IMG/VR virus record: IMGVR_UViG_3300002514_000017
Span: 2,234 to 29,857 of that record
Direction: 5' to 3' (one strand)
Origin: a virus
Length of the DNA: 27,624 bases
In this document: positions 2,115 through 26,170 of the stretch, piece by piece
Layout: each line of letters starts with the position of its first letter
Position numbering within the stretch: the first letter of the stretch is position 1
Program-made: the position numbers and the translations under genes
Notes under the pieces: model-generated
Told to the model about the DNA's origin: nothing
Databases searched by the model: none
Seen by the model: the letters and a program-made list of their open reading frames with translations, nothing else

Positions 2115-2150
2115 GAGAATAGCACTCTATAGTGGTGTATAATTACTAAT

Positions 2151-6178: not shown

Positions 6179-6183
6179 ATAAG

Positions 6184-10236: not shown

Positions 10237-10266
10237 TATGATACCTATAATCAGGAATAAATTTTT

Positions 10267-12264
10267 ATGGTAGTGCCATCACAAAGCAATGATTCACAAA
10301 ATAATGAAGCAGATGCACTCGAAAGTCAGCTAAATGAGGATTTTAGTGATATTAATTTTACCAGCCTCCCGGGCACTCCTGTCACTCTTGTTAACATACC
10401 TGAGGCAAGATCTGTCAATGCAAAGTTCGTATATAACTTTTATGTAAAAGATGAAAGAACAAATGGCTCAGGCCAGATGGGTGTGATCCCACTCAATAAT
10501 CCTTCTCAGGAAGAAATTCAAAGGGCAAGAGCTTCAAAGCTGCCAAGGTATATCGAGATAAACATAGAGCCGGCTGTATATGACTCAGATGATCCACACC
10601 TCGCCGGATTTGCATCTAGTTTTAAGATATCTGAGAATATTAGCTTATTAAACTTTGAAAGGGCTGTATCTAACTCTTATTTTTCATCATTAAGACTAAA
10701 AGACGATCAGCTAGATCAAAGCTTCTATGATGCTCTTGAGAGCTCTGTTAATTTTTTTGGAGTTAATGCTCAGACCAGTGCTCCTCAGCTAGCAAATGCA
10801 CTAACAAAGCTTGGTGTGACAGGTGAGGCTGCATTTGGGCCTAAGGGGCTGCTTATTAGAGATGTATTGTCAAATATGCAAGCCCAGGGAGTTAGGTATG
10901 CTCCTACAGACACTAGAAGAGAAATTGTTTCTGAGGCATTGAGATCAGTTCGCTATGTTGACTTTACAATGAATATCAACAATCTTGTGATATCAAATGT
11001 TGTAAGAGGGTCCGGCGAAGACAAAACCAATATATACCAAGATGAACTTTTCTCTACATATGACCAAGCTGATAATATTCAGTCACTTGCGATTGGACTA
11101 GCAAATCCGTCGCAGATCTCTGCTGATGAATTTGAACTAACACTCAATGTCATAGACTCAGTAGCTACCACATCATGTTCAACTGAGAATGATGCTCCAC
11201 TAAATGAGAAATCATTTCCAGTTGGATACTATATAGAAAAATATGAAATTGAACAGATAGATGCTGAAAAATTTAGAATAATCACACATAATCCTCTAAT
11301 ATCTGATGGGTATACAAGATGCAGCATCTTAGATTCAGGCGTGAAATATGGTAGCACGTATATCTATCTTGTGAGGGTAATAGCACTCACAAGATTCCAG
11401 GCATTCAGAAGAGATGAGACTGGAAACACAGAGGACCAGGTCGTGACTACAATAGCTGCAGTTGCATCTTCTGGTGTTAATGAGAAAGTAACATGCACAG
11501 AAAATATTCCGCCTAATCCTCCTAGAAATATTAAGTTTAAGTGGGACTATGACAATGATTGCCTCATGTTATTTTGGGACGAGCCTCATAATTCGCAGAG
11601 AGATGTCACAAGATATCAAATTTTTAGAAGACAATCAGTAGATGTTCCGTTTACAATTGTAAAAGAATTAGACTTTGATAAATCTACATCTAGAGTTGTG
11701 CCCGCGGAAGTTGTTCCTAAGTCAAAAATACTTGAGGTAGGCGGCCCAAGAAAGTTCTTTAGAGACATAGAGTTTAAAAAAGACTCGCAGTATATCTACT
11801 CAGTTGCCTGCCAAGATGCACATGGATTTACATCAAATTATTCTGCACAGTTTCTTGTTTCATTTAACAGGGTGAAAAATAAGGTCATAACTGAACTAGT
11901 TTCCAGATTTGGGGCACCCAAGCCCTACCCTAATCTCTACCTCGAGAGGGATCTATTTGTAGATACTATGAGAGATTCAGGTCATTCTAGATTAAGAATA
12001 TTTTTTGATCCAGAATATTATGATGTGACAAAAACAGAAACTATTTCTACATATAAGAGGGGAAAAGAGTACTTTTCACAAAGAAATGCTTCACTTAATC
12101 TGATAGCAGATAATTATAAGTTACAGATAATCAATGTCGATGATCAAATGAGTAAGGTTATCGACATACAGATAAACGATTTATCTGGACCACCGCTTGA
12201 TGTTCCCATTAATGAGACGACAATAAATACAGCAGGTTTAGGTAACATGGTAAGCACAGAGTGA
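10267..12264 (+). CDS. Structural protein with fibronectin-III-like domains
   Basis: A 665-aa protein with an ATG start preceded by AGGA at 10253-10256. The first ~300 residues are unrecognised. Two beta-sandwich segments follow: about residues 319-400 (YYIEKYEIEQ, then YGSTYIYLVRVIAL) and about 417-533. The second is a good fibronectin type III match: a proline-rich entry (PPNPPRNIKF), L-F-W-D-E-P, then RYQIFRRQ, and the late strand YIYSVACQDAHG-x-T-S-N-Y-S. The C-terminal ~130 residues contain RLRIFFDPEYYD and a final beta-rich tail. Fn3 domains are frequent on exposed phage tail, baseplate and fibre proteins, where they may bind cell-surface polymers. The gene follows the 1350-aa protein after 30 bases and probably belongs to the same tail assembly. 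The domain call is from motif pattern; the role is inferred. Confidence 0.7.
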   Translation: MVVPSQSNDSQNNEADALESQLNEDFSDINFTSLPGTPVTLVNIPEARSVNAKFVYNFYVKDERTNGSGQMGVIPLNNPSQEEIQRARASKLPRYIEINIEPAVYDSDDPHLAGFASSFKISENISLLNFERAVSNSYFSSLRLKDDQLDQSFYDALESSVNFFGVNAQTSAPQLANALTKLGVTGEAAFGPKGLLIRDVLSNMQAQGVRYAPTDTRREIVSEALRSVRYVDFTMNINNLVISNVVRGSGEDKTNIYQDELFSTYDQADNIQSLAIGLANPSQISADEFELTLNVIDSVATTSCSTENDAPLNEKSFPVGYYIEKYEIEQIDAEKFRIITHNPLISDGYTRCSILDSGVKYGSTYIYLVRVIALTRFQAFRRDETGNTEDQVVTTIAAVASSGVNEKVTCTENIPPNPPRNIKFKWDYDNDCLMLFWDEPHNSQRDVTRYQIFRRQSVDVPFTIVKELDFDKSTSRVVPAEVVPKSKILEVGGPRKFFRDIEFKKDSQYIYSVACQDAHGFTSNYSAQFLVSFNRVKNKVITELVSRFGAPKPYPNLYLERDLFVDTMRDSGHSRLRIFFDPEYYDVTKTETISTYKRGKEYFSQRNASLNLIADNYKLQIINVDDQMSKVIDIQINDLSGPPLDVPINETTINTAGLGNMVSTE

Positions 12265-12271
12265 TATTATT

Positions 12272-12290
12272 TACCGATAACGTTTCGGTA
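12272..12290 (+). other. Short inverted repeat between structural genes
   Basis: A 6-bp perfect stem (TACCGA at 12272-12277 with TCGGTA at 12285-12290) and a 7-base loop lie in the longest gap of the structural block, just after the stop of the Fn3-like gene. No run of T follows, so it is not a textbook intrinsic terminator. It may be a weak terminator, an mRNA end-stabilising hairpin or chance. The A-rich stretch after it holds the AAGGAG ribosome binding site (12306-12311) of the next gene. Confidence 0.3.
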
Positions 12291-12322
12291 CAGTATATTT
12301 AAAAAAAGGAGTATAACACTAC

Positions 12323-13036
12323 ATGGGATTTCTTGATCAAAGCACAAATAACATAATTTTAGATGCAGTTTTAACAGACTATGGAAGACAGTCTCTCGCA
12401 GCAAATGATGGAAGCTTCTCTATCTTTAAGTTTGCATTTTCTGATGAAGAGGTAGATTACGGAAATATAGTCAATTTTGGAAGAACTGTTGGAAAAGAAA
12501 AAATTGAAAAAAATACTCCAATCTTGGAAGCACTAACACAGGGAAACTTGGGACAAAAGTATAGAACACTATCTATTAATAATGATGCTCTGACTAGACT
12601 ACCAACACTAACCTTGCAGTCTAATTCTAATATCACAAATTCTATTCTGTCAATAGTAGAGGGCGGAAATACAAGACAGGTCACTGTTAGTCAGACTCTA
12701 GTGTCGGGCGGAACTCTTGACCCAGACATAACTGACTACTCGTATAGAATAACACTTTCTAGTCTATTTCTTTCAATACGGGGTAGAACACCAGATAGTG
12801 TTGATTCTGATAACATCGCAACCTATATCCTGGAAGCAGATCCTGTAATCAGCTCTGAAGGATTATCTGGTTTGACATTCAATATATCAGCTAAGGCTGT
12901 CTCAAGTGATCTTTTTGACACCTATAAGCAAAAAGGCGGATCTATAGTTGAAAGAATCTTGACAGTCTCAGGAAATAACTCAGGTGCTTTTTTAAGCTTC
13001 CGTGTACAAATCTCTAGTGGGTCAACTTCTACCTAG
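12323..13036 (+). CDS. Structural protein sharing an N-terminal module with the 2151 gene
   Basis: A 237-aa protein with ATG start and a strong AAGGAG site 11 bases upstream. The N-terminus GFLDQSTNNIILDAVLTDYG followed by F-x-F-A-F-S-D-E-E-V-D-Y matches in spacing and character the start of the protein encoded at 2151. Thus two neighbouring structural genes share one N-terminal module fused to different remainders. From memory, proteins starting MG[FI]LD...ILD..LTD.GR recur in tail regions of environmental T4-like phages without a known function. The remainder is beta-rich (RITLSSLFLSIRGR, LTFNISAKAV, FLSFRVQISSG). The gene ends in a perfect 14-base palindrome that includes its stop codon. 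A tail or fibre-associated virion role is inferred from context. Confidence 0.7.
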   Translation: MGFLDQSTNNIILDAVLTDYGRQSLAANDGSFSIFKFAFSDEEVDYGNIVNFGRTVGKEKIEKNTPILEALTQGNLGQKYRTLSINNDALTRLPTLTLQSNSNITNSILSIVEGGNTRQVTVSQTLVSGGTLDPDITDYSYRITLSSLFLSIRGRTPDSVDSDNIATYILEADPVISSEGLSGLTFNISAKAVSSDLFDTYKQKGGSIVERILTVSGNNSGAFLSFRVQISSGSTST

Positions 13037-13041
13037 GTAGA
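13028..13041 (+). other. Perfect 14-base palindrome over a stop codon
   Basis: TCTACCTAGGTAGA is its own reverse complement and contains the TAG stop (13034-13036) of the 237-aa gene. It ends just before the GAGGAG ribosome binding site (13043-13048) of the next gene. In RNA it could fold as a 5-bp stem with a CUAG loop. It might affect translational coupling or be a protein-binding site; it may also be chance. Confidence 0.35.
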
Positions 13042-13053
13042 TGAGGAGAAAAA

Positions 13054-14334
13054 GTGGCATCATTTAAAGAAATAACTAGTGCAGACATAAAGACAACTAA
13101 GTCTTTTCTTAATCAGCTTGTAGATATAATTCAAGAAGATGTATCTGGGTCAAGCACCAGAAAGACATATCAGGTTTTTGTCACTGGCGGAGTCGGTCCT
13201 GGAGTGACATCATCACTTTTTCAGACAATATACGATCAAAATTTTGACCTGCAGACAGCAAATCCTGTTTTTGATCTGACAATAGGATTATTCTCTGGAA
13301 GTAATGCAGTCACGGCATCATCGACTGGTGTAGATTCTAACGGTAAAGTTCTTTTCCCATCAAGCTCACTTATGATGAGAGAAAAGGTTGCTAACTATAG
13401 ACAGTTCGCTCAGCTCCTTCTGGGAGATTCAAATGCTGCGTTTTACTCTCCTTTCTCAAAATATGTGGCTGCAACTGATCAGACTGAGGATCGCGCTGCA
13501 ACAGATGTAATAGATTCTGCTATGTTCGTGTGCTTTAAGAGGCTCTTTTCTAGGGATGAGATAAAGAGAGAGACATTTGCAATGAAGTTTTTCACAAGTG
13601 CGTCACACTCTCCTTATCCAGGAGGTGCAGCAACTGATACCCAGCTTCCAAATCTTGCACAAACATCTGAGTCCGGCTCAGCAATATTCACTGATGTAGG
13701 TTCTTCAACCAACTTAGAGAGATCATTTGGCGGTTCAGTTGGAAATATTGTCAATGCAGCAAACACAAGTGAAAATGTCGGCCTGATGTTTTATGATCAG
13801 GGAACAGCTATATTCAATCTAAATAGAATAATTTCAGGATCACAGCATGTGAGCGGAGTTATCTCAGCAATGAATTCCCTTGGGCCGAGTGGCATACCTG
13901 TAGGTAAGACACTCATTGGATCTAGCGACCTTGGCGTGTCCTCAAATCCAAAAGCTAAATTTATTCCAGACCTGATGGTGTCAGCATCTATTGATGATAT
14001 CATCAATCACCTTGCTTCATGTAGATTTAGCTCTGGATCTAATACAGCAATGACATTTCAGAATCTAACTGCTATAAACTCTACTTTAATATTCTGTAGA
14101 AAGACAGCAGATGAGTTTAACTATTCGTCTAATCCGACATACGTTGATCCTGATGATAATCGAATTAGGGTGATTGAGGTAGGACAACAAGATGTGCAAA
14201 GAGCATTTTGTTTCGTCACGACAGTCGGTCTTTATGACGCAAGTGATAACTTACTAGCAATAGCTAAGCTATCTCGACCCGTCGAGTTCAATAATGAAAA
14301 GGACATAACAATCAGAGTAAGACTGGATTTCTAG
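13054..14334 (+). CDS. Virion structural protein with a C-terminal module shared with the 14346 gene
   Basis: A 426-aa protein. The GTG start at 13054 has GAGGAG (13043-13048) 5 bases upstream and lies 17 bases after the previous stop. The N-terminal region reads TGGVGPGVTSSLFQTIYDQN and DLTIGLFSGS; the middle is Ser/Gly/Ala-rich. The last ~84 residues (from about 343) read F-N-Y-S-S-N-P-T-Y, then CFVTTVGLYDASDNLLAIAK, then L-S-R-P-V and the ending IRVRLDF. The next gene ends in the same way (F-N-S-S-S-N-P-S-Y, I-S-G-V-Y-L-H-D, A-Q-P-V, IRVKQDF). A shared C-terminal module at the very end of two adjacent virion proteins suggests a common docking or oligomerisation unit. From memory, this ending is widespread in structural proteins of environmental phages. 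No enzyme motif is visible. Confidence 0.7.
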   Translation: MASFKEITSADIKTTKSFLNQLVDIIQEDVSGSSTRKTYQVFVTGGVGPGVTSSLFQTIYDQNFDLQTANPVFDLTIGLFSGSNAVTASSTGVDSNGKVLFPSSSLMMREKVANYRQFAQLLLGDSNAAFYSPFSKYVAATDQTEDRAATDVIDSAMFVCFKRLFSRDEIKRETFAMKFFTSASHSPYPGGAATDTQLPNLAQTSESGSAIFTDVGSSTNLERSFGGSVGNIVNAANTSENVGLMFYDQGTAIFNLNRIISGSQHVSGVISAMNSLGPSGIPVGKTLIGSSDLGVSSNPKAKFIPDLMVSASIDDIINHLASCRFSSGSNTAMTFQNLTAINSTLIFCRKTADEFNYSSNPTYVDPDDNRIRVIEVGQQDVQRAFCFVTTVGLYDASDNLLAIAKLSRPVEFNNEKDITIRVRLDF

Positions 14335-14345
14335 GGGGCTTCTCA

Positions 14346-16808
14346 GTGTCCCTCATAAAGATACTGCCAGAATATATAGAGAAATTTTCTTTAACACTCC
14401 ATCCGGAGATAAGTTATGTGAGTTCCTCTATAGCCGGGTCAACTGGCTCGATGCCGCTGTCTCCCAGACCAAGCAAGTGTCTAAAAAATATCATCTTGCC
14501 AGAAAAGAGCGGTCAAAATGTATTTGATGCTGATAGCACAGCTATTCCTGGGTTCAATGTGATGACCTATGAGATACTTGCAGAGATAGATTCAGCAAAG
14601 GCAAATGTTGCGAAGGCTGCAATAGATGGAGACTCTGTAGACGTATTAAATACATTTGAAAAATACATGGAGTTAGTTAATTCATCGTCACAGATAGCAA
14701 GAAATAGTAAGCGATTTGAAATAGTGAGATTTGACCCTCCGTTTACATATAAGCTTAACACGTCTGTTAAAAATGCAATTAAAAATATACTGATGCCATA
14801 TTATGCACCGTACTATGATCAGTGTCATTTCGCCTATACCAACTATAACACACTTAATTTTTTCACATCATCAAATGTTCCGTCCAACTCAGCTATCATC
14901 TATAATAATCTAGATATAGCTGGACTAGAAGGGAGACCATTTCTCCCGTCAGGTTCATTTTCTATAGACTTCTATGTTAACCCAAGATACACAAATGAAC
15001 CGGGTGAGAATTATAAGGCAGGAACTATCATGCATATGTCATCAACATTTGCTGTTTCACTTGTTTCTGGAAGCACTCATGATGGAAATGGCTCTGCAAA
15101 CACATTTAGAATTTTATTACAGTTGAGTCACAGCGCAGACATAGCACCTAGTAATATTGATGCAAGCATAGCAAATAATAAAAGATCATACCCGACAGAT
15201 CTCGTATTTCTTTCAAAAGAGAGCATGCCTCTCAGTAGAAATCACTGGCATCATGTGTGCATAAGGTGGGGAGGAAATCTTATTAATGCTGGCTCTGGAA
15301 GTATTACAATTGATGACACGCAGACATACTTTAACGTTCCCTCCTCGTCGATAACACCGCCCAAGCATGTCAGTGCTGCAGCACTTATTCTTGGAAACTA
15401 CTATAACGGCTGGGATGATGAGGCAAGGTTTTTTAATAACGTCGACGCACCTGTCGAGGGATACTGGCCGTATGAGACCATTCCCCAAATAGAAGAAAGT
15501 AAATTTAAATTTGATCATCCGCTCAATGCTGAGATCCACGATGTAAAGATATTTGACAAATACATAGACAGCATTAAAATGAAAGAAAATAGTAAGTCTG
15601 GTCAGTCATCTACAGACACAGATGGACTACTATTTTATGTTCCCCCGTTCTTCACACCAGAGTCGAGAATAGCTGAGCAGATAATAACTCCATTTCAAAC
15701 AGAGAATAGAGATACTAAAAAACCATTCAATACAATTTTTTCATTTGGCGTGGGAGGCTGCCTGATCAATCTTCAAAATTTTGTTAGAGAATTCAAGACA
15801 GGTTATCATCCAAGGCTGTGGAACCTGACTGCATCTACGATTGACTATACAGTTCTTGACATAACTGCTAATAGCTATGTTTATCACACAGCATCAACTA
15901 GAAAGAGAAACTTAACAATTCTTCCAAATGATAATGGGTTATTCACTCCAGACTTTGAGATCTTAAATAGCGGCTCACTGCAGCAGAAGACAGATGCATT
16001 TAGAAGTCCGCACGGTGGGTATAATTTGAGCACAGTTGACTTAAGCGATATGGTCCCACCGATCAGAGCATACAAGGGATTGACATCTGTTAGTGCAACT
16101 GATCTGCTAAAGGCAATAGATAACAAGATATCTAAGCTAGAAGATGACACAACGATGAATAATATTGCAAATCAGATTGCTGGAGTCACACCAGAGATAT
16201 TATCTTCTCTTCAGGGTGCAACACAGCCCGGGCAGATCTTAACAATCTATCAGAGGACAAGAGATCCTAGCTCTAATGAAGTCAGTATATTTGATATCTC
16301 TAATCTATATTATGGTAATAAAATTTTTCCGGGAAGTTTTTATCTAACAGATCCCAATGTCACAGCATCTAATGGAATAGTTAAGATGACTCTATCAGAC
16401 AATGAAAGAGGAAGCCTATACAGGGCTGATGCACTAACTCCTCATGCCAAGTGGTCTAGTGTTGGATCACTTTTATATAATGAGGGAGTAGCAGTTGTGA
16501 AGTCTCCTCACATACCATTCTTTGGAAAAGATGTTTTTGAAGCAAAATTCAAGGGTGAGCAGAACACTCATATTATGACAGTTAACATACCTGCTAGTGT
16601 TGGACTCTTTAACTCATCCTCAAATCCATCCTACAGGATACTTTCTGCATCATTTGATGCAAGTGAAACAGATCCCAGATTTGTTTATATATCAGGTGTC
16701 TATCTTCACGATGATAACTTAAACGTCATAATGAGATCAAATTTAGCTCAGCCTGTCAAAAAGAGAACAACTGATGAGATGCTAATCAGGGTCAAGCAGG
16801 ATTTTTGA
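14346..16808 (+). CDS. Large structural protein with LamG/concanavalin-like domain
   Basis: An 820-aa protein starting at GTG 14346. AGGGGG (14333-14338) overlaps the preceding stop and lies 7 bases before the GTG. Residues ~196-410 look like a LamG/concanavalin A-like jelly roll: F-S-I-D-F-Y-V near 205, a long beta region, the typical W-H-H-V-C-I-R-W-G-G at 301-310, then I-T-I-D-D-T near 320, L-I-L-G-N-Y-Y near 347, and E-I-H-D-V-K-I-F-D near 396. Such domains bind carbohydrates or act as beta-sandwich spacers on phage fibres and adhesins. The last ~79 residues (from 742) repeat the C-terminal module of the upstream protein, ending IRVKQDF. This makes it a good candidate for a host-surface-binding or tail-decorating protein. 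The stop TGA overlaps the ATG of the resolvase by one base. Confidence 0.7.
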   Translation: MSLIKILPEYIEKFSLTLHPEISYVSSSIAGSTGSMPLSPRPSKCLKNIILPEKSGQNVFDADSTAIPGFNVMTYEILAEIDSAKANVAKAAIDGDSVDVLNTFEKYMELVNSSSQIARNSKRFEIVRFDPPFTYKLNTSVKNAIKNILMPYYAPYYDQCHFAYTNYNTLNFFTSSNVPSNSAIIYNNLDIAGLEGRPFLPSGSFSIDFYVNPRYTNEPGENYKAGTIMHMSSTFAVSLVSGSTHDGNGSANTFRILLQLSHSADIAPSNIDASIANNKRSYPTDLVFLSKESMPLSRNHWHHVCIRWGGNLINAGSGSITIDDTQTYFNVPSSSITPPKHVSAAALILGNYYNGWDDEARFFNNVDAPVEGYWPYETIPQIEESKFKFDHPLNAEIHDVKIFDKYIDSIKMKENSKSGQSSTDTDGLLFYVPPFFTPESRIAEQIITPFQTENRDTKKPFNTIFSFGVGGCLINLQNFVREFKTGYHPRLWNLTASTIDYTVLDITANSYVYHTASTRKRNLTILPNDNGLFTPDFEILNSGSLQQKTDAFRSPHGGYNLSTVDLSDMVPPIRAYKGLTSVSATDLLKAIDNKISKLEDDTTMNNIANQIAGVTPEILSSLQGATQPGQILTIYQRTRDPSSNEVSIFDISNLYYGNKIFPGSFYLTDPNVTASNGIVKMTLSDNERGSLYRADALTPHAKWSSVGSLLYNEGVAVVKSPHIPFFGKDVFEAKFKGEQNTHIMTVNIPASVGLFNSSSNPSYRILSASFDASETDPRFVYISGVYLHDDNLNVIMRSNLAQPVKKRTTDEMLIRVKQDF

Positions 16809-17362
16809 TGATACTGGGGCTTGATATATCCACAAGTTGCACGGGCTGGTGTGTGATTGATCAAAGCGGTAGTCTCATAGATATGGGATATATCTTTCTC
16901 TCATCTGAGAAGACATTTTTTGATAAAGCAGAAAAGGTAAAGAAAACATTTTTAAGCATAAGATCACAGCACGATATTCAAAAAATATTTATAGAAGAAA
17001 ATCTTCAAGCATTTAGACCTGGATTCTCTTCTGCTAAGACACTGCTAACACTTGCAAGATTTAATGGAATTGTGAGCTATTTATCACAGCTAGAATTTTG
17101 CTTAGCACCTCAGTTTATTAATGTAAATACAGCAAGAAGAGAGCTGGGAATAAAGATTATTTCTAAGAAAAATGGAGGTGACCCAACAAAAGAGCAAATT
17201 TTATCTTGGGTCGCAGAAGAGATTAAAAATACTAGCTATAAATGGCCAACAAAGATACTTAAGTCTGGACCTAGAAAGGGTCAAAAAGTATTAGAGTTAT
17301 TTTGTTATGACATGGCAGATGCATATGTCATCGCTTTATCTGGTCACAGAATGAACACATAG
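16808..17362 (+). CDS. RuvC-like Holliday junction resolvase
   Basis: A 184-aa protein of the RuvC / RNase H-fold nuclease family, which cuts four-way DNA junctions with two metal ions. The four expected acidic positions are visible: D6 in GLDISTSCTGW, E63/E64 in IFIEEN, and D168 and D171 in YDMADAY. The length fits RuvC (about 170-190 aa). I start it at the ATG at 16808, which overlaps the stop of the upstream structural gene (TGATG), rather than at the TTG one codon before; the mature family start M-I-L-G-L-D then fits. Phage T4 itself uses endonuclease VII (gp49) for this step, so RuvC would be a functional replacement here. In T4-like phages resolution of branched DNA is needed for packaging, which suits translational coupling to a late structural gene. 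Confidence 0.85.
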   Translation: MILGLDISTSCTGWCVIDQSGSLIDMGYIFLSSEKTFFDKAEKVKKTFLSIRSQHDIQKIFIEENLQAFRPGFSSAKTLLTLARFNGIVSYLSQLEFCLAPQFINVNTARRELGIKIISKKNGGDPTKEQILSWVAEEIKNTSYKWPTKILKSGPRKGQKVLELFCYDMADAYVIALSGHRMNT

Positions 17363-17385: not shown

Positions 17386-18348
17386 GTGGAAACATTTACT
17401 TCAAAATCAGACTTCTTAAGGAGATGCTTTGGTGATCTTCGCTTCTCTAGGTGTGAAAATAATGTAGCAGTAGAGTGTCCCAGTTGTGGAGACAAAACAC
17501 AAAAGAAAAAATTCTCTATTAATATCAATAGCTGGAAGTGTCACTGCTGGGTTTGTGGAATAAAGGGAAAAAACTTATCAAGAATTTTATTTGATCATGT
17601 CTCAAAAGATCTCTCTAGAGAGTATTGTTCTAGATTTTTGATAGATTTTGACACAAGTGAGAAGATCGTCGAGGCCAAGGAAGAAAAGATATCGTTGCCA
17701 GAGGAATTTATTCCTATCACAGATGTGATTAGGTCAAAGGATCCTGACATAAGATCCTGTATAAGGTATCTATTTTCTAGAGATGTCAGTGAGAGAGACA
17801 TGTGGATGTATAAGCTGGGAATAGCTACATCTGGAAAGTTTAGAAGAAGAATCATCATGCCATCATTTGATGAGTGCGGAGAGTTAAATTATTTTTCTGC
17901 AAGAGCTATTGATGATTCAAGATACAAGTATATCAATTCAAAAAATAAAAAGATCGACATAGTGTTTAATGAGATTAATATTGACTGGAAAGAGGAGCTA
18001 GTGATAGTTGAGGGCCCGTTTGATCTTTTAAAGGCAGGATTTAACTCGACATGCTTGCTGGGCTCGAGTCTATCACCCTCAAGTCTTCTTTTTAAAAAAG
18101 TTGTATCATTTCAAACTCCCATTATACTAGCGCTTGATAGTGACATGGATAAAAAAACAAGAAAGATAGCTGATCTATTACAAGATTATTCATGTCAAGT
18201 AAGAATTATTGATATTGGAAAATTCAATGATGTCGGTGAAATGTCTAAAAATGATTTTTTAAAAATTAAAAAGGAAGCGTATGCTTGGAGCAGGGGGACC
18301 TCTTTAATTAAAAAAATAGGGGCAATAGAAACAGAATCGATATTTTAG
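17386..18348 (+). CDS. DNA primase, DnaG/T4 gp61-type, zinc finger plus Toprim
   Basis: A 320-aa primase that would make RNA primers for lagging-strand synthesis. The N-terminal zinc-binding domain has C31-P-S-C34 and C54-W-V-C57. A region near 140-180 (KFRRRIIMPSFD, then YFSARAIDD) resembles the N-terminal part of the DnaG catalytic core. The Toprim domain follows with E209 in VEGPFDLLKA and the D-x-D pair D251/D253 in ALDSDMD. There is no helicase domain, so a separate gp41/DnaB-like helicase must be encoded elsewhere. The start is uncertain: GTG at 17386 is the only good start near the conserved zinc finger, but it has no clear ribosome binding site. The gene lies 23 bases after the resolvase. 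Length is close to T4 gp61 (342 aa). Family membership is well supported by motifs. Confidence 0.85.
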   Translation: METFTSKSDFLRRCFGDLRFSRCENNVAVECPSCGDKTQKKKFSININSWKCHCWVCGIKGKNLSRILFDHVSKDLSREYCSRFLIDFDTSEKIVEAKEEKISLPEEFIPITDVIRSKDPDIRSCIRYLFSRDVSERDMWMYKLGIATSGKFRRRIIMPSFDECGELNYFSARAIDDSRYKYINSKNKKIDIVFNEINIDWKEELVIVEGPFDLLKAGFNSTCLLGSSLSPSSLLFKKVVSFQTPIILALDSDMDKKTRKIADLLQDYSCQVRIIDIGKFNDVGEMSKNDFLKIKKEAYAWSRGTSLIKKIGAIETESIF

Positions 18349-18682: not shown

Positions 18683-21600
18683 ATGAAAATACTTCATATA
18701 GCAGACATTCACTGGCGTGGACTGTCTAGACATGATGAATATAAAGAATCTTTTTTAGCATTTTTTGAACAAGCTAGATCTCTGAATCCTGATATTATTT
18801 ATATCGGTGGAGATATTGTTCACAATAAGACGCAAGGGATATCTCCAGAGCTGATAGACTGTCTCTGTTGGTGGTTTAAGTCATTATCTGACATAGCACC
18901 CATACACATAATTCTAGGCAACCACGACGGCCTGATGCTTAATTCGGATAGACAAGATGCTATTTCTCCAATAGTTGAGGCGCTAGATAGTGATAGAATT
19001 TATCTCTATAAGAAATCAGGCGTTTTTCCAATATCTGGTCATGAAAAATTTAATTGGTGTGTCTTCTCCTGCTTTGATGAATTATCATGGAAAGATGTCT
19101 TTCCTGAAGATGGTAAGATTAATATTGCACTATTTCATGGAGCAGTCTGGGGTTCACTAACTGACATCGACTGGGAGATAGATGGTGATGTAGATACATC
19201 TTTTTTTAATGGCTATGATTTCGCATTGCTAGGAGACATACATAAGCGACAATTTTTAAATAAAGAAAGAACAATAGCATATCCCGGATCAACAATCCAG
19301 CAAAACTATGGTGAATCTTGCGGAAAGGGATTTTTATTTTGGGATATCAGAGAGAAAGATGATTTTGATGTAGAATTTTTTGAAATTCCGCACTTCAAAC
19401 CATTTGTCACGCTCGACTGGCAAGGCTCAGTTGAGAAAACACTCTTTATTGCAAATGACTACCCGGATGAGTCTAGATTTAGAATAAGATCTGATAGCAC
19501 ACTGAGTCACGCAGACAGTAAAAAAATTCAGTTTGACCTTAAGCGAGAGAAGTCAGCAGCAGAGGTTGTTTTTAAGTCTGAATCTTCTTTTGATGCATCC
19601 AAAATTCAAATTCAAGACGGAAGTTTTAAAAAAGAAAACCTAAGAGACACTAGCACAATAAAGCGTCTAATCAGAGGGTACTATAAGAATTCTGATCTTA
19701 GCAAAGAAATTTTATCACAACTTGACAGGCTAATAGACAATTATGTTTCTCAAATTTCTGAAGAAGAAGAATCTCTTAGAAATACAAGATGGCAAATCAA
19801 TAAGCTAAAATTTGATAATTTATTTGCATACGGCTCAGGTAATCTTATTAATTTTGAAAATCTTCCTGGGATAACAGGAATTTTTGGAAAAAATACAAGA
19901 GGAAAATCATCTATAATAGGTTCGATAATGTATGGACTTTTTAATACAACAGACAGGGGAAGTATTAAAAATGAACACATTATTAATAGCAGAAAAAATA
20001 ATTGCATAGCAGAGATTGATATTTCTGTTAATAGCGAACCATTCAGAATACTAAGATCAACAAGCAAGCATCAAACAAGAAAAGGAGAGATATATTCATC
20101 AACCTCATTAAATCTTTATAGGCTTAATGAGCTAGGCGATATTAAGGATGACTTAACTGAGGAACAAAGAAGAGAAACTGAAAAAGTATTGAGAAAAATA
20201 ATAGGAAGTGCAGATGATTTTTCTATGACATCTCTAGCTGCTCAAGGAGAAATGAACACGTTTATTAGAGAAAAAGCAACTGCAAGAAAGATTATTTTAA
20301 CTAAATTTCTTGATTTAAATATTTTTGAAAAAATGCATGACATAGCAAAATCTGAATCAGCAGAGATCAGAAATAAAATAAAGATCTTTCCAGATATAGA
20401 CTGGCAATCAGAAATTGATGAGCTTAAGATAATACTATCTGATTCTAAAAATAAAAAAGAGCTTTACACAAATGATATTCTCACTAAGAGAGAAATATTG
20501 CAAAGATTGAGCGCAGACTTAGCAACATCAGATAATCCAGATATTATTACTATTGAAGAGATAGATAGGAAAAAATTATCTATAGATAAGATTTCTAGAA
20601 CATTGGTTAAAATTGATAAAAAAGAGGATAGTTTAAAGAGTCAGATAACAGAAAAGACAGAAAAGCGAGAAAAGATTGAACTTGTAAAAAATGATTTTTC
20701 AATTGATAGCTTAAGAAACAAGCTCGAACATCAAAATGAACTTGAAAGAGATATTGTTGAGCTAAAGCATAAAAGTGAAAAGATAGAGTCTGAACTTTTA
20801 AGACAAAAAAGATCAATTCAAAAACTAAGCGGGATTCCATGTGGAGATACCTATCCTGCCTGTAAGTTTATCAAAGATTCACATTCTGACAAAAAGAAAA
20901 TAGATGATCAAATAGAGCTATCAAAGACTTCTATGCTAGCGCTATCTTCTGCTAAGAGTGCACTTAATGTAATCTTAGGTGAAGAAATAGATGCTAAAAT
21001 TAAAAAATACAAAAGGATGTCTGATATGCAAGCAAATTTGTCAATGGAGGTATCAAAAATACAGGTAGCCTATAATAACACCATAAATGAAAAGAAAAAT
21101 GTATCTAGTGAGCTTGAATCTCTAAGGGACGATCTAGTAGAGATGAAAGAGAGGTACATAGAAGATGAAGATAATAGATCATCTGCGATAAGAAGAAAGA
21201 TAACAGAAATATCAGAAGAATTAACTTCACTAGATAGAAAAAAGACAAAAGAAATTGAAAAGATAGCCAAGACGAGTGTAGAGATCTTGGGCCTTGAAAA
21301 GGACAAAAAAGATTTTTCAAGATTTAAAAGTGATATCTTAACGTATGACATGTTTATTCAAGCAGTATCTAAAAAGGGAATACCACTACAGATAATGATG
21401 TCACAGTTACCAATAATAAACTTAGAAATATCAAAGATCTTGCAGGGAGTTACTGGTTTTACAGTTGAGCTAGAGGCTGATCTTGACTCAAATTCCATGG
21501 ATGTATTTATTAATTACGGCGACAGTAAAAGAATAATCGAGCTAGCATCAGGAATGGAAAAGATGATGGCTTCATTAGCGATAAGAGTAGCACTGATTAA

Positions 21601-21820
21601 TGTTTCAACTCTAACAAAAACAAACATGCTTATCATCGATGAAGGATTTGGAGCACTAGATGAGCTAAATATTGAGGCCTGTACAAGACTTTTAAGCTCA
21701 TTAAAAAAATGGTTTAGAAATATTATAATCATATCTCACGTAGACTCTATTAAAGATGCAGTCGATCACTCATTAGAAATAACTAAGAAGGAGAAGAATA
21801 CAGTTGTCTATCATCCATAA
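18683..21820 (+). CDS. Single-chain Mre11-Rad50 (SbcD-SbcC, gp47-gp46 type) recombination nuclease
   Basis: A 1045-aa fusion of two proteins that are normally separate. Residues 1-~345 are Mre11/SbcD-like: D8 and H10 in ADIHWRG, D44 in GGDIVHN, GNHD at 79-82, H152 in FHGA, and GDIHKRQ at 184-190. Residues ~370-1045 are Rad50/SbcC-like: Walker A GKNTRGKS (402-409), Q-loop Q521 in AAQGEM, a coiled coil from ~555 to ~890 interrupted by a hook with C720 and C727, signature LASGMEK (954-960), Walker B with D986-E987 in MLIIDEGFGALDE, and H1019 in ISHVD. The complex resects double-strand ends using ATP and, in T4 (gp46/gp47), feeds recombination-dependent replication. No ATG, GTG or TTG lies in frame across residues 352-382, so a hidden separate Rad50 start at the junction is unlikely. 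Each coiled-coil arm is only ~150 residues, much shorter than in bacterial SbcC. Confidence 0.9.
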   Translation: MKILHIADIHWRGLSRHDEYKESFLAFFEQARSLNPDIIYIGGDIVHNKTQGISPELIDCLCWWFKSLSDIAPIHIILGNHDGLMLNSDRQDAISPIVEALDSDRIYLYKKSGVFPISGHEKFNWCVFSCFDELSWKDVFPEDGKINIALFHGAVWGSLTDIDWEIDGDVDTSFFNGYDFALLGDIHKRQFLNKERTIAYPGSTIQQNYGESCGKGFLFWDIREKDDFDVEFFEIPHFKPFVTLDWQGSVEKTLFIANDYPDESRFRIRSDSTLSHADSKKIQFDLKREKSAAEVVFKSESSFDASKIQIQDGSFKKENLRDTSTIKRLIRGYYKNSDLSKEILSQLDRLIDNYVSQISEEEESLRNTRWQINKLKFDNLFAYGSGNLINFENLPGITGIFGKNTRGKSSIIGSIMYGLFNTTDRGSIKNEHIINSRKNNCIAEIDISVNSEPFRILRSTSKHQTRKGEIYSSTSLNLYRLNELGDIKDDLTEEQRRETEKVLRKIIGSADDFSMTSLAAQGEMNTFIREKATARKIILTKFLDLNIFEKMHDIAKSESAEIRNKIKIFPDIDWQSEIDELKIILSDSKNKKELYTNDILTKREILQRLSADLATSDNPDIITIEEIDRKKLSIDKISRTLVKIDKKEDSLKSQITEKTEKREKIELVKNDFSIDSLRNKLEHQNELERDIVELKHKSEKIESELLRQKRSIQKLSGIPCGDTYPACKFIKDSHSDKKKIDDQIELSKTSMLALSSAKSALNVILGEEIDAKIKKYKRMSDMQANLSMEVSKIQVAYNNTINEKKNVSSELESLRDDLVEMKERYIEDEDNRSSAIRRKITEISEELTSLDRKKTKEIEKIAKTSVEILGLEKDKKDFSRFKSDILTYDMFIQAVSKKGIPLQIMMSQLPIINLEISKILQGVTGFTVELEADLDSNSMDVFINYGDSKRIIELASGMEKMMASLAIRVALINVSTLTKTNMLIIDEGFGALDELNIEACTRLLSSLKKWFRNIIIISHVDSIKDAVDHSLEITKKEKNTVVYHP

Positions 21821-22095: not shown

Positions 22096-22476
22096 ATGCT
22101 TAATTCACACGAAATCAATGTCTTGGGTCAGACACTAAATGACACATGGGGAAAATCTTCAACATCTGTATCACCAACTGTCTCAATCACAACTAAAATG
22201 TCAGGTGATACACTGACGCTAAATTATACGACAGTTTGTAATTTAGCATCTGAAAGAAATCTTAGGGATCAGGTAAAAGTTTTTGAAGAGGAGTCTATAC
22301 AGCTTATAAAAGACTTTGTCTCTAGAGTAAAGAAAGAGTTTAAGGAAGCAGCTGGAAGAGCACTTAAGTTAAAAGAACTTTCTACTAATGACAGTGTTGA
22401 ATTAATAACAGCTTCTCCATTTACTCCAAGAAAGACCGCATACTATAGAAGATTCACAACATTTCGGTGTGAGTAA
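22096..22476 (+). CDS. Hypothetical protein in the small-terminase position
   Basis: A 126-aa protein with ATG start and a good AAGGAG site (22085-22090). It lies directly before the large terminase and overlaps its start by one base (TAATG at 22474-22478). In T4 this place is held by gp16, the small terminase that recognises DNA and regulates gp17. However, the protein does not show the central coiled coil and helix-turn-helix expected of gp16. It has a beta-rich N-terminal half (SPTVSITTKMSGDTLTLNYT), one amphipathic helix (EEESIQLIKDFVSRVKKEFK), and a basic C-terminal end (SPFTPRKTAYYRRFTTF). It could equally be a head- or tail-completion protein. Small terminase is therefore a positional guess only. 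Confidence 0.65.
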   Translation: MLNSHEINVLGQTLNDTWGKSSTSVSPTVSITTKMSGDTLTLNYTTVCNLASERNLRDQVKVFEEESIQLIKDFVSRVKKEFKEAAGRALKLKELSTNDSVELITASPFTPRKTAYYRRFTTFRCE

Positions 22477-24101
22477 TGGCGAGAATTAATAAGTCTAGAC
22501 AGATATCAGAGATAATAAAGTGTGGAAAAGACCCTACATACTTTTTTAACTCTTATCTGAGAATTCAGCACCCAGTTAGAGGATTGATAAAGTTTGATAC
22601 TTATCCCTTTCAAGATGATTGTGTTGAGACTTTTATTGAAAACAGATTTTCAATAATATTAAAGTCTAGACAGCTAGGAATGTCAACTCTTGTTGCTGCA
22701 TATGCGACGTGGATTGCTCTTTTTCAAAAAGATAAAAATATTCTTATTATCGCAACAAAGCTGAGTGTTGCTCAAAACTTTATCACAAAAGTTAAAACAA
22801 TGATAAGAAGTCTTCCAGCATGGCTAGTTTTACCTCAAATAGTAACGAATAATAAGCAGCTAATTGAATTTAATCACGGATCATCAATAAAAGCAGTTCC
22901 TACCTCTGAAGATGCTGGACGATCCGAGGCTTTGTCACTTCTAATCATCGATGAGGCAGCATTTGTTAGAAATTTTGATGAGCTGTGGACAGGCCTTTAT
23001 CCTACAATATCAACAGGGGGCCGAGTTATTATTCTCTCATCACCCAATGGTGTAGGCGGACAATATTACAAGCTATATACAGATGCAGAGGCGAACTTGA
23101 ATGAATTTCAATCAATAAGATTGCCTTGGGACGTACACCCAGAAAGAGATAAAAACTGGTTTGATCTCACAACTAAAAACTTATCACCCCGCCAGATCTC
23201 ACAGGAGTATTTATGCGATTTTGCATCCTCAGGAGAGACATTTCTATCAGTCACAGATATTGAGTGGGTACGAGAGGAAATAAAGCCGCCTAGAGAAAGA
23301 ACAGGATTTGATAGAAATATATGGATCTGGGAATACCCACTATCAGAACATCAATACATTATTTCCGCTGATATATCTCGGGGTGACTCAAAAGACTTTT
23401 CTACATTTCATGTAACTGATATAGATACAGGTGAGTGTGTTGCTGAGTATAAGGGCAAACTACCTCCAGATAGATTTGGAGAAATTTTAGATGAATATGG
23501 AAGAAAATATAATAATGCACTTCTCTGTCCAGAAAATAATTCATATGGATTTGCAACAATTGTTAAGCTCAAAGATTTAAATTATCCCTGCCTATACTAC
23601 TCAAAAAGAAAGTCAGTATTTATAGGAGGGTACCAGCCAAAATCAGATTCCGAGATCGCAGGTTTTACAACAAGTGGAAAGACGCGTAATTTAATACTAA
23701 CAAAGCTAGAAGAAATTATTAGAAATAAGCAAATAAAGGTATACTCATCTAGATTTTATGAAGAGTTAAAAACATTTGTTTGGAAGTCTAACAAGGCACA
23801 GGCGATGAAAGGGTATAATGACGATCTAGTAATGAGTTTTGCAATTAATATGTGGCTGTACGACACTTCATCAGACCATAGCAAAAATTCAAAAGTTTTA
23901 AATGCCTCAATGCTTGAAGGAATGAAGTTAACGAGAAACTCATATGATGATCTTCCAGGAGCAATAACAGAAGGTAGACCCCATAGCTCTACAAGTAGAG
24001 ATCCAAAGGCTCATCCAGATGATATGAAGAAAAATTCTTTATCTCCTGGGTGGAATTCTAAAATTAAAATGCTATCAGAATGGGACTGGGTAGTTAAATA
24101 G
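22476..24101 (+). CDS. Terminase large subunit (T4 gp17-like)
   Basis: A 541-aa DNA-packaging motor: an N-terminal ATPase translocates DNA into the prohead and a C-terminal RNase H-type nuclease cuts the concatemer. ATPase motifs are Walker A in LKSRQLGMST (62-71), Walker B LLIIDE (155-160, D159 and catalytic E160), and the coupling motif LSSPNG (187-192). Nuclease acids are D299 in SADISRGD, E353 in CPENNSYG, and D449/D450 in GYNDDLVMSF. The P-loop differs from T4 (SRQLGKTT): Lys before T is Met, and the nearest Lys is K63 at the start of the loop, a deviant form known in several terminases. The start overlaps the previous stop. The protein is shorter than T4 gp17 (610 aa), mainly in the N-terminus. 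Portal follows 20 bases downstream, as in T4-like head operons. Confidence 0.93.
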   Translation: MARINKSRQISEIIKCGKDPTYFFNSYLRIQHPVRGLIKFDTYPFQDDCVETFIENRFSIILKSRQLGMSTLVAAYATWIALFQKDKNILIIATKLSVAQNFITKVKTMIRSLPAWLVLPQIVTNNKQLIEFNHGSSIKAVPTSEDAGRSEALSLLIIDEAAFVRNFDELWTGLYPTISTGGRVIILSSPNGVGGQYYKLYTDAEANLNEFQSIRLPWDVHPERDKNWFDLTTKNLSPRQISQEYLCDFASSGETFLSVTDIEWVREEIKPPRERTGFDRNIWIWEYPLSEHQYIISADISRGDSKDFSTFHVTDIDTGECVAEYKGKLPPDRFGEILDEYGRKYNNALLCPENNSYGFATIVKLKDLNYPCLYYSKRKSVFIGGYQPKSDSEIAGFTTSGKTRNLILTKLEEIIRNKQIKVYSSRFYEELKTFVWKSNKAQAMKGYNDDLVMSFAINMWLYDTSSDHSKNSKVLNASMLEGMKLTRNSYDDLPGAITEGRPHSSTSRDPKAHPDDMKKNSLSPGWNSKIKMLSEWDWVVK

Positions 24102-24121: not shown

Positions 24122-26170
24122 ATGGCAAATTCAAATAAAAGCCTATTCAGAAAGTTAACACAGCTGTTCAGAAGCGGTCCAGTCATAAAGAGAAAGGTTC
24201 GAGATTTTGAATCTAGCTCTAAGACATCCTCAGCCTTTGAGCTTTTTAGAAAAAATCAGAGCCACGTCTATAGCACAGCAATGAGCGCATATGGCACGTA
24301 TGATAGGATGGCAAGATATTCTGATTTTTCAGAGATGGAATATACACCAGAGATATCCAGTGCGCTAGACATATATTCAGAAGAAACTGTGGCATCTGAT
24401 GAACACGGAAGAGTGCTTCACATCTATTCTGAGAATCCTACGATAGATAGACTATTAACTGAACTATTTTATGACACACTAAACGTGGAATTTAACCTCA
24501 CTTCGTGGGTAAGAAATCTTTGTAAGTACGGAGACTTTTTCTTATTCAATGATGTTGCCCCAGACCAGGGAGTCATTAATGCATATCCTATGCCAGTTAA
24601 TGAGGTAGAGAGAGAGGAGGGCTTTGATCCTGAAGATCCGATGGCAGTGAGATTTAGGTGGGTGACCCAGGGGAATCAGGTACTTGAAAATTGGCAAGTT
24701 TCTCATATGAGAGTCCTGGGAAATGATGCATTCCTGCCATATGGCTCTTCTGTCCTTGAAGCTGCGAGAAGAATTTGGAGACAGCTGATACTTGTCGAGG
24801 ATGCTATGCTAGTCTATAGGGTTGTCAGGTCACCTGAGAGACGAGTGTTTTACGTCGATGTCGGAAATGTTCCTCCAGAAGATATTCCGAACTATATGGA
24901 GCAGGTTCAGTCAACACTAAAGAAGTCCGAGGTGATTGATAAGTCATCTGGAAGGGTTGACCTGAGATATAATCCTCTGAGTGTTGATGAGGACTATTAT
25001 ATTCCAGTTAGGGGGGCAGAGTCTGGAACAAAAATTGACACGCTAGCTGGGGGAGCAAATGCAACAGCAATCGAAGATGTTGAGTATATACAAAAAAAGC
25101 TTTTTGCTGCATTAAAAATACCTAAGGCATATCTTGGATATGATGAAGGGCTCGGAGCAAAGGCAACCCTATCTCAAGAAGACATACGATTCTCTAGAAC
25201 AATTGCTAGAATTCAAAGAACAGTCGTAGCTGAGCTCAATAAGATAGCAATAATTCACTTATTTTGCAATGGATTTGAGGGAGAAGACCTCCTAGACTTC
25301 AGCCTTCAGCTCAGCAATCCCTCTACGATTGCACAGCAGCAAAAGCTAGAACTATATAGGACAAGATTTGAAATTGCAACATCTGCAGCAGGAAATGAGG
25401 GGCTTGTCAGTAGGGACTGGGTTAGAAAAAAGCTATTTAATATGACAGATGACGACATCGCTAATATTCAAAGAGAGAGAATAGAAGATAAGGAAGAAGA
25501 TCTTGAGGTTGAAGCTGTCAAGTTGCCAGGGTCTGGAGGGGATGAAGAGCTGGGAGGAGATCTCTCAGCACCACCGCTAGCTGAATCTGAAATAGATGAC
25601 ATCAGTGATAATAAATCAGGCTTTGACTTTGATAAACTATCAATATCAGACATAAATTCTCCAATTATTGCTCAAAATACTGTTAACAGGCTATCGTCAA
25701 TAAATGAGGAGAGTGACAATGAGGAGAGTGACTATGACATCGAAGATGAACTATTAGAGAGTGATCCTGAAACACAGGCCGAAAAAGATATAGCAAATAG
25801 CAAGAGAAGAAATAGAAAAGGGTACTCAGATACTGATCATCTTTCACTTGTGTCGCATGATCCTTCAGATGTTTCAGACTCTATTTCTCACCCATACGCT
25901 GAAAAGCTCCGAAGGCAAAAAGATAAAGGTGAACAAAGAGATGCTGTTAATCCACTGAGAAGAGCACATAGGACTGGATTAAACGAATATGAGGGATATA
26001 TGACTGGATTTCTTGATGATAAGCTTAATAATCATGCAAATATGACTGCTAGACTACAATCGACCTTAAAATCTCTAGAGAAGAGAATACATAATAAAAG
26101 GACAATTCTTTCTGAGAATGATGAGTTAGACATACAATCTCGTGAGCATGAATCTTACGGGGAGGACTAA
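24122..26170 (+). CDS. Portal protein (T4 gp20-like) with long acidic C-terminal tail
   Basis: A 682-aa portal, the dodecameric ring at the head vertex through which DNA enters and leaves and on which the head is assembled. The core (about 30-455) shows the gp20 pattern: YTPEISSALDIYSEE near 74-88, RNLCKYGDFFLF near 131-142, YGSSVLEAARRIWRQL near 207-222, RVVRSPERRVFYVDVG near 233-248, and the clip/stem region IPKAYLGYDEGLGAKATLSQ at 333-352 followed by DIRFSRTIARIQR. T4 gp20 is 524 aa; here about 225 extra residues follow, mostly acidic and Ser-rich (455-600) and then helical (NMTARLQSTLKSLEKRI near the end). The tail holds a duplicated NEESD. It might bind prohead core, DNA or neck proteins. 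The ATG has a weak ribosome binding site and follows the terminase by 20 bases. Confidence 0.9.
   Translation: MANSNKSLFRKLTQLFRSGPVIKRKVRDFESSSKTSSAFELFRKNQSHVYSTAMSAYGTYDRMARYSDFSEMEYTPEISSALDIYSEETVASDEHGRVLHIYSENPTIDRLLTELFYDTLNVEFNLTSWVRNLCKYGDFFLFNDVAPDQGVINAYPMPVNEVEREEGFDPEDPMAVRFRWVTQGNQVLENWQVSHMRVLGNDAFLPYGSSVLEAARRIWRQLILVEDAMLVYRVVRSPERRVFYVDVGNVPPEDIPNYMEQVQSTLKKSEVIDKSSGRVDLRYNPLSVDEDYYIPVRGAESGTKIDTLAGGANATAIEDVEYIQKKLFAALKIPKAYLGYDEGLGAKATLSQEDIRFSRTIARIQRTVVAELNKIAIIHLFCNGFEGEDLLDFSLQLSNPSTIAQQQKLELYRTRFEIATSAAGNEGLVSRDWVRKKLFNMTDDDIANIQRERIEDKEEDLEVEAVKLPGSGGDEELGGDLSAPPLAESEIDDISDNKSGFDFDKLSISDINSPIIAQNTVNRLSSINEESDNEESDYDIEDELLESDPETQAEKDIANSKRRNRKGYSDTDHLSLVSHDPSDVSDSISHPYAEKLRRQKDKGEQRDAVNPLRRAHRTGLNEYEGYMTGFLDDKLNNHANMTARLQSTLKSLEKRIHNKRTILSENDELDIQSREHESYGED
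25703..25732 (+). repeat. Perfect 15-base tandem duplication in portal tail
   Basis: Two identical adjacent 15-base units (25703-25717 and 25718-25732) encode NEESD twice, residues 528-537 of the portal, in frame. Perfect identity suggests a recent slippage or duplication event in the acidic tail. Confidence 0.9.

Follow-up and report, generated by a model that had tools for sequence, protein, structure and literature searches.

A probable single-chain Mre11–Rad50 nuclease of a T4-related tailed phage, with a stretched putative zinc hook

The DNA analysed here (the window) is a stretch of 27,624 bases, positions 2234–29857 of a 75,118-base viral record which may itself be a fragment. It contains, on the plus strand, an uninterrupted frame from ATG to stop that encodes 1045 residues, with a nuclease at the amino terminus and an ATPase at the carboxy terminus. 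The frame belongs to a run of genes on one strand, in the order RuvC-like resolvase, DnaG-like primase, fusion, two small genes, terminase, T4-type portal protein and prohead protease. The fusion and its principal neighbours are:

16805..17362, + strand, RuvC-like resolvase (PHROG_159, 1.7e-11; beside the fusion in 96 loci)
17386..18348, + strand, DnaG-like primase (PHROG_47, 1.7e-36; just upstream of the fusion in 128 loci)
18683..21820, + strand, fused Mre11(SbcD)–Rad50(SbcC) gene (open frame and family matches; 113 intact fused homologues)
22476..24101, + strand, terminase large subunit (PHROG_2, 3.4e-52; conserved neighbour in 134 loci)
24122..26170, + strand, T4-type portal protein (Portal_T4, 8.4e-75; conserved neighbour in 124 loci)

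Both halves of the chain were recognised by family and by structure searches. Pfam Metallophos matches residues 1–188 (1e-13) and PHROG_77 SbcC matches residues 279–1042 (8.7e-53); SMC_N was matched as well. The matches to solved structures separate by half, those to Mre11/SbcD falling on residues 1–225 and those to Rad50/SbcC on residues 385–573 and 873–1036. An alignment was made with 62 homologues, which are 39–69% identical to the window protein. The residues that never vary among them are D8, H10, D44, H47, N80, H81, H152, D185 and H187 in the nuclease, and G402, K408, S409, Q521, S956-G957-M958-E959, D986-E987, D993 and H1019 in the ATPase. The motif positions named in an earlier note on this DNA (D8, H10, D44, N80, H81, H152, G402–S409, 954–960, D986-E987 and H1019) were all right, and those of its residues that were tested are invariant in the 62 homologues; D185, H187 and Q521, which its list lacked, are likewise invariant. 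The parts of the protein were assigned as follows:

18683..19417, + strand, Mre11/SbcD nuclease domain, residues 1–245, with D8, H10, D44, H47, N80, H81 and H152 (Metallophos; SbcD folds 7dog, 4m0v and 6s6v)
19235..19243, + strand, last metal-ligand motif, residues 185–187, DIH where HxH is usual (no variation of D185 or H187 among the 62 homologues)
19418..19582, + strand, capping domain, residues 246–300, boundaries approximate (strand and helix order in the model; SbcD structures of nuclease plus capping domain matched)
19583..19624, + strand, flexible hinge from the capping domain to the Rad50-binding helices, residues 301–314 (pLDDT below 50 in an otherwise confident model)
19649..19756, + strand, Rad50-binding helix-loop-helix, residues 323–358 (predicted helices 323–333 and 341–358)
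19757..19786, + strand, fusion linker, residues 359–368 (after helix 341–358 and before the ATPase's first strand at 369)
19787..20317, + strand, Rad50 ATPase N-lobe, residues 369–545 (model; PHROG_77 and SMC_N matches)
19886..19909, + strand, Walker A, residues 402–409, GKNTRGKS (G402, K408 and S409 invariant in 62)
20318..20833, + strand, ascending coiled coil, residues 546–717 (model helices)
20834..20872, + strand, putative zinc-hook loop at the coil apex, residues 718–730, C720-x6-C727 (loop between model helices 674–717 and 731–766)
20873..21367, + strand, descending coiled coil, residues 731–895 (model helices)
21368..21817, + strand, Rad50 ATPase C-lobe, residues 896–1045 (invariant columns; Rad50 structure matches)

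The amino-terminal half has the calcineurin-like phosphoesterase fold of Mre11/SbcD with the metal ligands DxH, GDxx, GNHD, H and (H/D)xH. It also has the capping domain and the carboxy-terminal Rad50-binding helix-loop-helix of these proteins, as indicated by predicted helices and by alignment with the tails of split SbcD proteins. The split references carry His at position 185, with the exception of one Vibrio phage. Two loci (L083 and L169) contain interrupted genes; the break lies in the nuclease domain, near residue 195–210, away from the junction of the two halves. A group I intron in L083 was rejected, as Rfam gave no match.

The carboxy-terminal half consists of two lobes split by a coiled coil and carries all the motifs of Rad50/SbcC, namely Walker A, Q-loop, signature, Walker B, D-loop and H-switch. 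The signature (residues 954–960, LASGMEK), Walker B (D986-E987), the D-loop and H1019 are in the C-lobe. At the third position of the signature, M stands in place of G (SGME). A CXXC zinc hook, described as conserved in all life (PMC5093744), is not found in the window protein, which has two apex cysteines at CX6C spacing. This C-x6-C arrangement is read at the coil apex in 60 of the 62 homologues (e.g. VPCGDSFPTCKF): C727 is present in all 62 and C720 in 60, two relatives lacking the first cysteine. In the sister clades of fused proteins, and in almost all of the split references, the hook is CxxC. By sequence, the CX6C of the window's subclade is an altered, stretched putative zinc hook and, as a test case provided by nature, could show how strictly the universal CXXC rule holds.

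An AlphaFold model of the fusion, computed as a monomer, has a mean pLDDT of 83.5 and a pTM of 0.51; the latter is expected because of the long flexible coil. The order in the model is nuclease, capping domain, hinge (301–314), helix-loop-helix (323–358), linker (359–368), N-lobe, coil and C-lobe. Helices 323–333 and 341–358 align with the carboxy-terminal Rad50-binding helices of split phage SbcD/gp47. The stretch 359–369 is 11 residues long in 46 of the 62 homologues, 10 in 15 and 13 in one; the linker is poorly conserved in sequence (mean column identity of 0.39), although nearly constant in length. Yoshida et al. calculated a linker of 9–12 residues from a gap of 28 Angstrom in the complex of Thermotoga (PMC3175470), and the observed lengths agree with this range.

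The linker is also the place where two working polypeptides might be separated, by an internal translation start or by cleavage, even though the gene is fused. Apart from the weak conservation of the linker sequence, in-frame start codons at alignment position 375 in 20 of the 62 homologues speak for this. No alignment position has a conserved start in the 62 homologues, however, and Shine–Dalgarno-like sequences upstream of candidate starts amount to seven scattered cases in the family; the length of the linker is maintained while its sequence drifts. The earlier note had observed that residues 352–382 hold no in-frame ATG, GTG or TTG and had taken this to argue against a hidden second gene. 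The observation is true, and the start-free gap is larger still: none occurs at residues 301–415 of the window gene, and the only one within residues 301–420 is the ATG at 416, after Walker A and inside the ATPase. Nothing thus points to a hidden second gene, and an internal start was rejected on these two grounds, the missing conserved start and the start-free gap. A recognisable ribosome-binding site is absent even at the true start of the window gene, so that its absence internally is only weak evidence against internal initiation. On balance, we regard the production of two working polypeptides as very unlikely.

Related loci were gathered by scans of viral contigs, first with the window protein and then with the alignment of 62 homologues, and by a scan of 84,980 species genomes. 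The complete fused frame is present in 113 of 129 related loci, nearly all of them independent viral contigs. In the other 16 the frame runs off the end of the contig, and none of the 129 is split into two genes; split relatives inside the fused clade were not found either. In order not to pick fused relatives by design, an alignment of nuclease halves only was used as a second query. It returned 80 loci; in 79 of them the nuclease frame continues into the ATPase, and the remaining one is truncated. The join is far beyond chance. The suspicion in the earlier note that related fusions exist in metagenomic phages is borne out by the 113 intact cases, and its reading of the two motif sets in one open frame as a true single-chain Mre11–Rad50 stands.

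Two genes can appear as one through a missed stop, a frameshift or an assembly join, and there is a precedent. Listeria phage LMTA-57 has an annotated ‘fusion’ of 1009 residues, while the genes are split in relatives such as P100. The two are 97.5% identical and differ by single-base insertions and deletions, and the ‘linker’ of LMTA-57 is a translated intergenic stretch which includes the second gene's own start codon. The linker of the window protein, in contrast, contains no leftover ribosome-binding site or start codon, and the same frame and linker length come from dozens of independent metagenomes. Because independent contigs share the fused frame, an assembly artefact is refuted, and we consider any artefact of this kind vanishingly improbable.

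The remainder of the record fits a virus of the T4 type. It encodes a UvsX-like recombinase (record positions 63583–64779, 1.8e-71), a single-strand binding protein (record positions 62694–63467) and, elsewhere, a DnaB-like helicase, a DNA polymerase fragment, an exonuclease, a ribonucleotide reductase, a T4-type major head protein and a contractile tail sheath. No second SbcC or SbcD is present on the 75,118-base record, which is possibly incomplete. By its gene content the record carries a T4-like kit for recombination-dependent replication, with the putative gp46/gp47 in one chain. The scan of the 84,980 species genomes gave only three matches, labelled Halobacteriovorax, Methylococcaceae and Gemmatimonadetes. 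These three contigs show the phage gene order and are therefore viral DNA in metagenome-assembled genomes, and a cellular origin was rejected. The phage of the window is marine.

The fusion is thus in all likelihood the DNA-end-processing nuclease, a single-chain Mre11–Rad50 (SbcD–SbcC), of a T4-related tailed phage, where it would replace the separate gp47 and gp46. The window protein is most likely a working enzyme. Covalent fusion fixes the Mre11:Rad50 stoichiometry at 1:1, as the earlier note had pointed out. Contacts between two copies would be made by the nuclease domains, by the heads with ATP bound and by the hook at the tip of the coil, and the dimer would be the same assembly of two nucleases and two ATPases as the ordinary complex. 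The Rad50-binding helices would dock in cis on the coiled-coil base of their own chain and be followed, after about 10 residues, by the N-lobe of the ATPase. According to the predicted fold, the hinge before these helices should still let the nuclease pair move on ATP binding and hydrolysis. The ordinary cycle is expected: with ATP bound, the heads would close and the nuclease would be shielded, and the cutting state would open upon hydrolysis in the presence of DNA.

It had also been suggested in the earlier note that the fusion restricts how ATP binding can open the nuclease, which would make for a mechanically different machine with the nuclease locked to the ATPase and an opening unlike that of ordinary Mre11–Rad50. 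The covalent 1:1 coupling is certain, and in the window's subclade both the hook (CX6C) and the signature (SGME) are altered, which would fit such a machine. However, in ordinary Mre11–Rad50 the helix-loop-helix is bound at the base of the Rad50 coil, and the stretch from the capping domain to it is a ‘long flexible linker’ or, in Pyrococcus, a 14-residue loop (PMC5786021, PMC8824468). The join thus falls between parts that already touch in ordinary complexes; as it links a helix-loop-helix already tied to Rad50, and as the mobile hinge 301–314 is kept, the fusion need not restrict ATP gating. The catalytic and ATP-switch residues are conserved as well. The suggested restriction is unsupported, and a locked machine seems to us quite unlikely.

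With gating of the ordinary kind, the enzyme would trim DNA ends to 3' single strands for the UvsX-like recombinase and the single-strand binding protein, as gene content and the example of T4 suggest. By the same reasoning, the 3' strands would drive recombination-dependent replication and the resulting genomes would then be packaged. The roles of T4 gp46/gp47 are in line with this proposal (PMC3175470). The main task could instead be host DNA breakdown, hairpin opening before packaging, or a Lamassu-like action against rival elements: T4 gp46/47 degrade host DNA too (T4 record annotation), the fusion gene directly precedes the terminase and portal genes, and there is a match of the ATPase half to LmuB, the ATPase of Lamassu (1.9e-23). 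The LmuB match, however, is that of any Rad50-like ATPase, and SbcC families score equally well or better. Lamassu LmuB is an SMC-like ATPase that belongs to a defence locus and has effector partners of the LmuA type; the ATPase of the window, by contrast, is fused to Mre11 and lies among primase, RuvC, terminase and portal genes. In more than 100 contigs the fusion is part of a core block for replication and packaging rather than of a variable defence region. A main task other than recombination-dependent replication is therefore unlikely. As a natural single-chain Mre11–Rad50, the enzyme could be a convenient reagent; with fixed stoichiometry, about 1050 residues and a short coil, it could allow ATP gating of the nuclease to be studied without assembly of a complex.

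A tree was computed from 560 conserved columns of 42 proteins (32 fused, ten split references). All 32 fused proteins are in one clade with a support of 100/100 and the ten split references are outside; this holds for a fused set gathered by similarity, a small split set and several long branches. The tree was calculated without R555 of Mimivirus and without the bacterial and eukaryotic fusions, and the row of locus L155, which was in a wrong frame, was excluded. Separate trees of the halves agree on the fused clade (support 98 for the nuclease, 97 for the ATPase), which includes a Microcystis phage isolate, relatives from 735-kb phages and Tenacibaculum phage pT24.

The earlier note had proposed an undescribed variant machine. 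This does not hold for the architecture, which has been on record since 2011, when Mre11/Rad50 fusions were reported in Mimivirus (R555), plasmids, bacteria, eukaryotes and a Bacillus phage (Yoshida, Claverie and Ogata; PMC3175470), among them Bacillus phage 0305phi8-36 and a Clostridium kluyveri plasmid; Tenacibaculum and Microcystis phages carry the fusion too. What is new, not having been found described in the literature searched, is the uniform fused phage clade, its conserved gene block and the CX6C hook. Yoshida et al. found the fusions to be scattered and not monophyletic (PMC3175470). Tentatively, and with less than even confidence, we propose that one ancient fusion founded a lasting single-chain lineage that spans marine tailed phages, huge phages (484–735 kb) and giant eukaryotic viruses, and that the CX6C hook of the window's subclade pairs the coils unlike every known Rad50. 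If the single ancient origin were true, the 2011 view of repeated independent fusions would be overturned for the viral part of the family. Yoshida et al. also argued for marine phages as a possible source of the abundant R555-like reads of viral fractions (PMC3175470). Such reads in seawater viral fractions most likely come from tailed phages like that of the window, which would explain this loose end.

Among the known systems, Mimivirus R555 shares the nuclease-first order, a similar linker and the retained helix-loop-helix. Two peculiarities of R555 (PMC3175470) are both invariant in the 62 proteins of the window's family: H47, where His replaces the third Asp (of GDxxD), and D185, where Asp replaces the first His of HxH. 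The best fold matches of the window protein are giant-virus proteins from Tupanvirus, Yasminevirus and Harvfovirus. The GOS scaffolds of Yoshida et al. carried phage primases (PMC3175470), and a primase adjoins the window fusion too. R555 differs in length (1351 residues compared with about 1045), whereas the window fusion is in a tailed-phage genome and has, in its subclade, the CX6C hook. Single-chain fusions of the same clade occur in two isolated phages, Microcystis phage Mel-JY01 (WWT39521.1) and Tenacibaculum phage pT24 (BPT24_019), where they are annotated only as ‘AAA domain containing protein’ and ‘DNA repair’; both have a CxxC-type hook, and that of pT24 is very divergent and has 1310 residues. 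T4 gp47/gp46 and the split phage SbcD/SbcC have the same domains, the same gene order and the same expected role with a UvsX-like recombinase. They differ in consisting of two genes, with His at 185, a signature of the S-E-G-E type and a CxxC hook; the coil of T4 is shorter than that of the window protein, and the split phage proteins fall outside the fused clade. Escherichia coli SbcCD, whose head structures 6s6v and 7yzp were matched, has the same fold and motifs, but is encoded by two genes and has the canonical GHIH, LSGGE and CPLC motifs.

The loop at the apex of the Rad50 coil in the fused Mre11-Rad50 protein (window 20834-20872) carries its two cysteines with CX6C rather than CXXC spacing and is a putative zinc hook. 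This spacing recurs at the coil apex in nearly all members of the window's subclade. In two relatives, L061 and L063, the hook reads GCKC, the first cysteine being lost.

Two relatives have interrupted frames. In a 484-kb phage (LR756508.1; L083:3944-8169), a 305-residue ORF interrupts the fused gene near residue 195, in the segment that separates the GDIHK motif from GSTIQQ. This ORF contains a PDFF...EVKG stretch as well as zinc-finger-like cysteines, and in these features it resembles a homing endonuclease. The interruption matched no intron family in Rfam, and insertion of a mobile endonuclease may therefore have split the gene. The frame of L169 (L169:3304-6544) is broken at the same place, near residues 200-210, by an insertion and a frame change; a sequencing error is a possible explanation.

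Seven large ORFs (up to 1350 residues; window 735-14334) had no match in Pfam or PHROGs. For one of them, at 13054-14334, relatives nevertheless occur in 75 loci among those compared. Elsewhere, the viral record encodes:

L184:6322-7038 (genome 36121-36837), sulfotransferase-like gene directly after the major head protein gene (PHROG_3347, 1e-12)
L186:155-2638, ribonucleotide reductase large subunit (1.4e-100)
L186:4254-5195, endolysin/amidase

The annotated 'fused' recombination exonuclease of Listeria phage LMTA-57 (L181:3917-6946) results from single-base insertions and deletions relative to phage P100 (L176), whose ATPase gene is itself spread over two frames; probably one of the two records contains errors. 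On an Ilyobacter polytropus plasmid (L180:3881-8086), sbcD directly adjoins sbcC; the two share a reading frame with just a stop codon between them, possibly a halfway step towards fusion.
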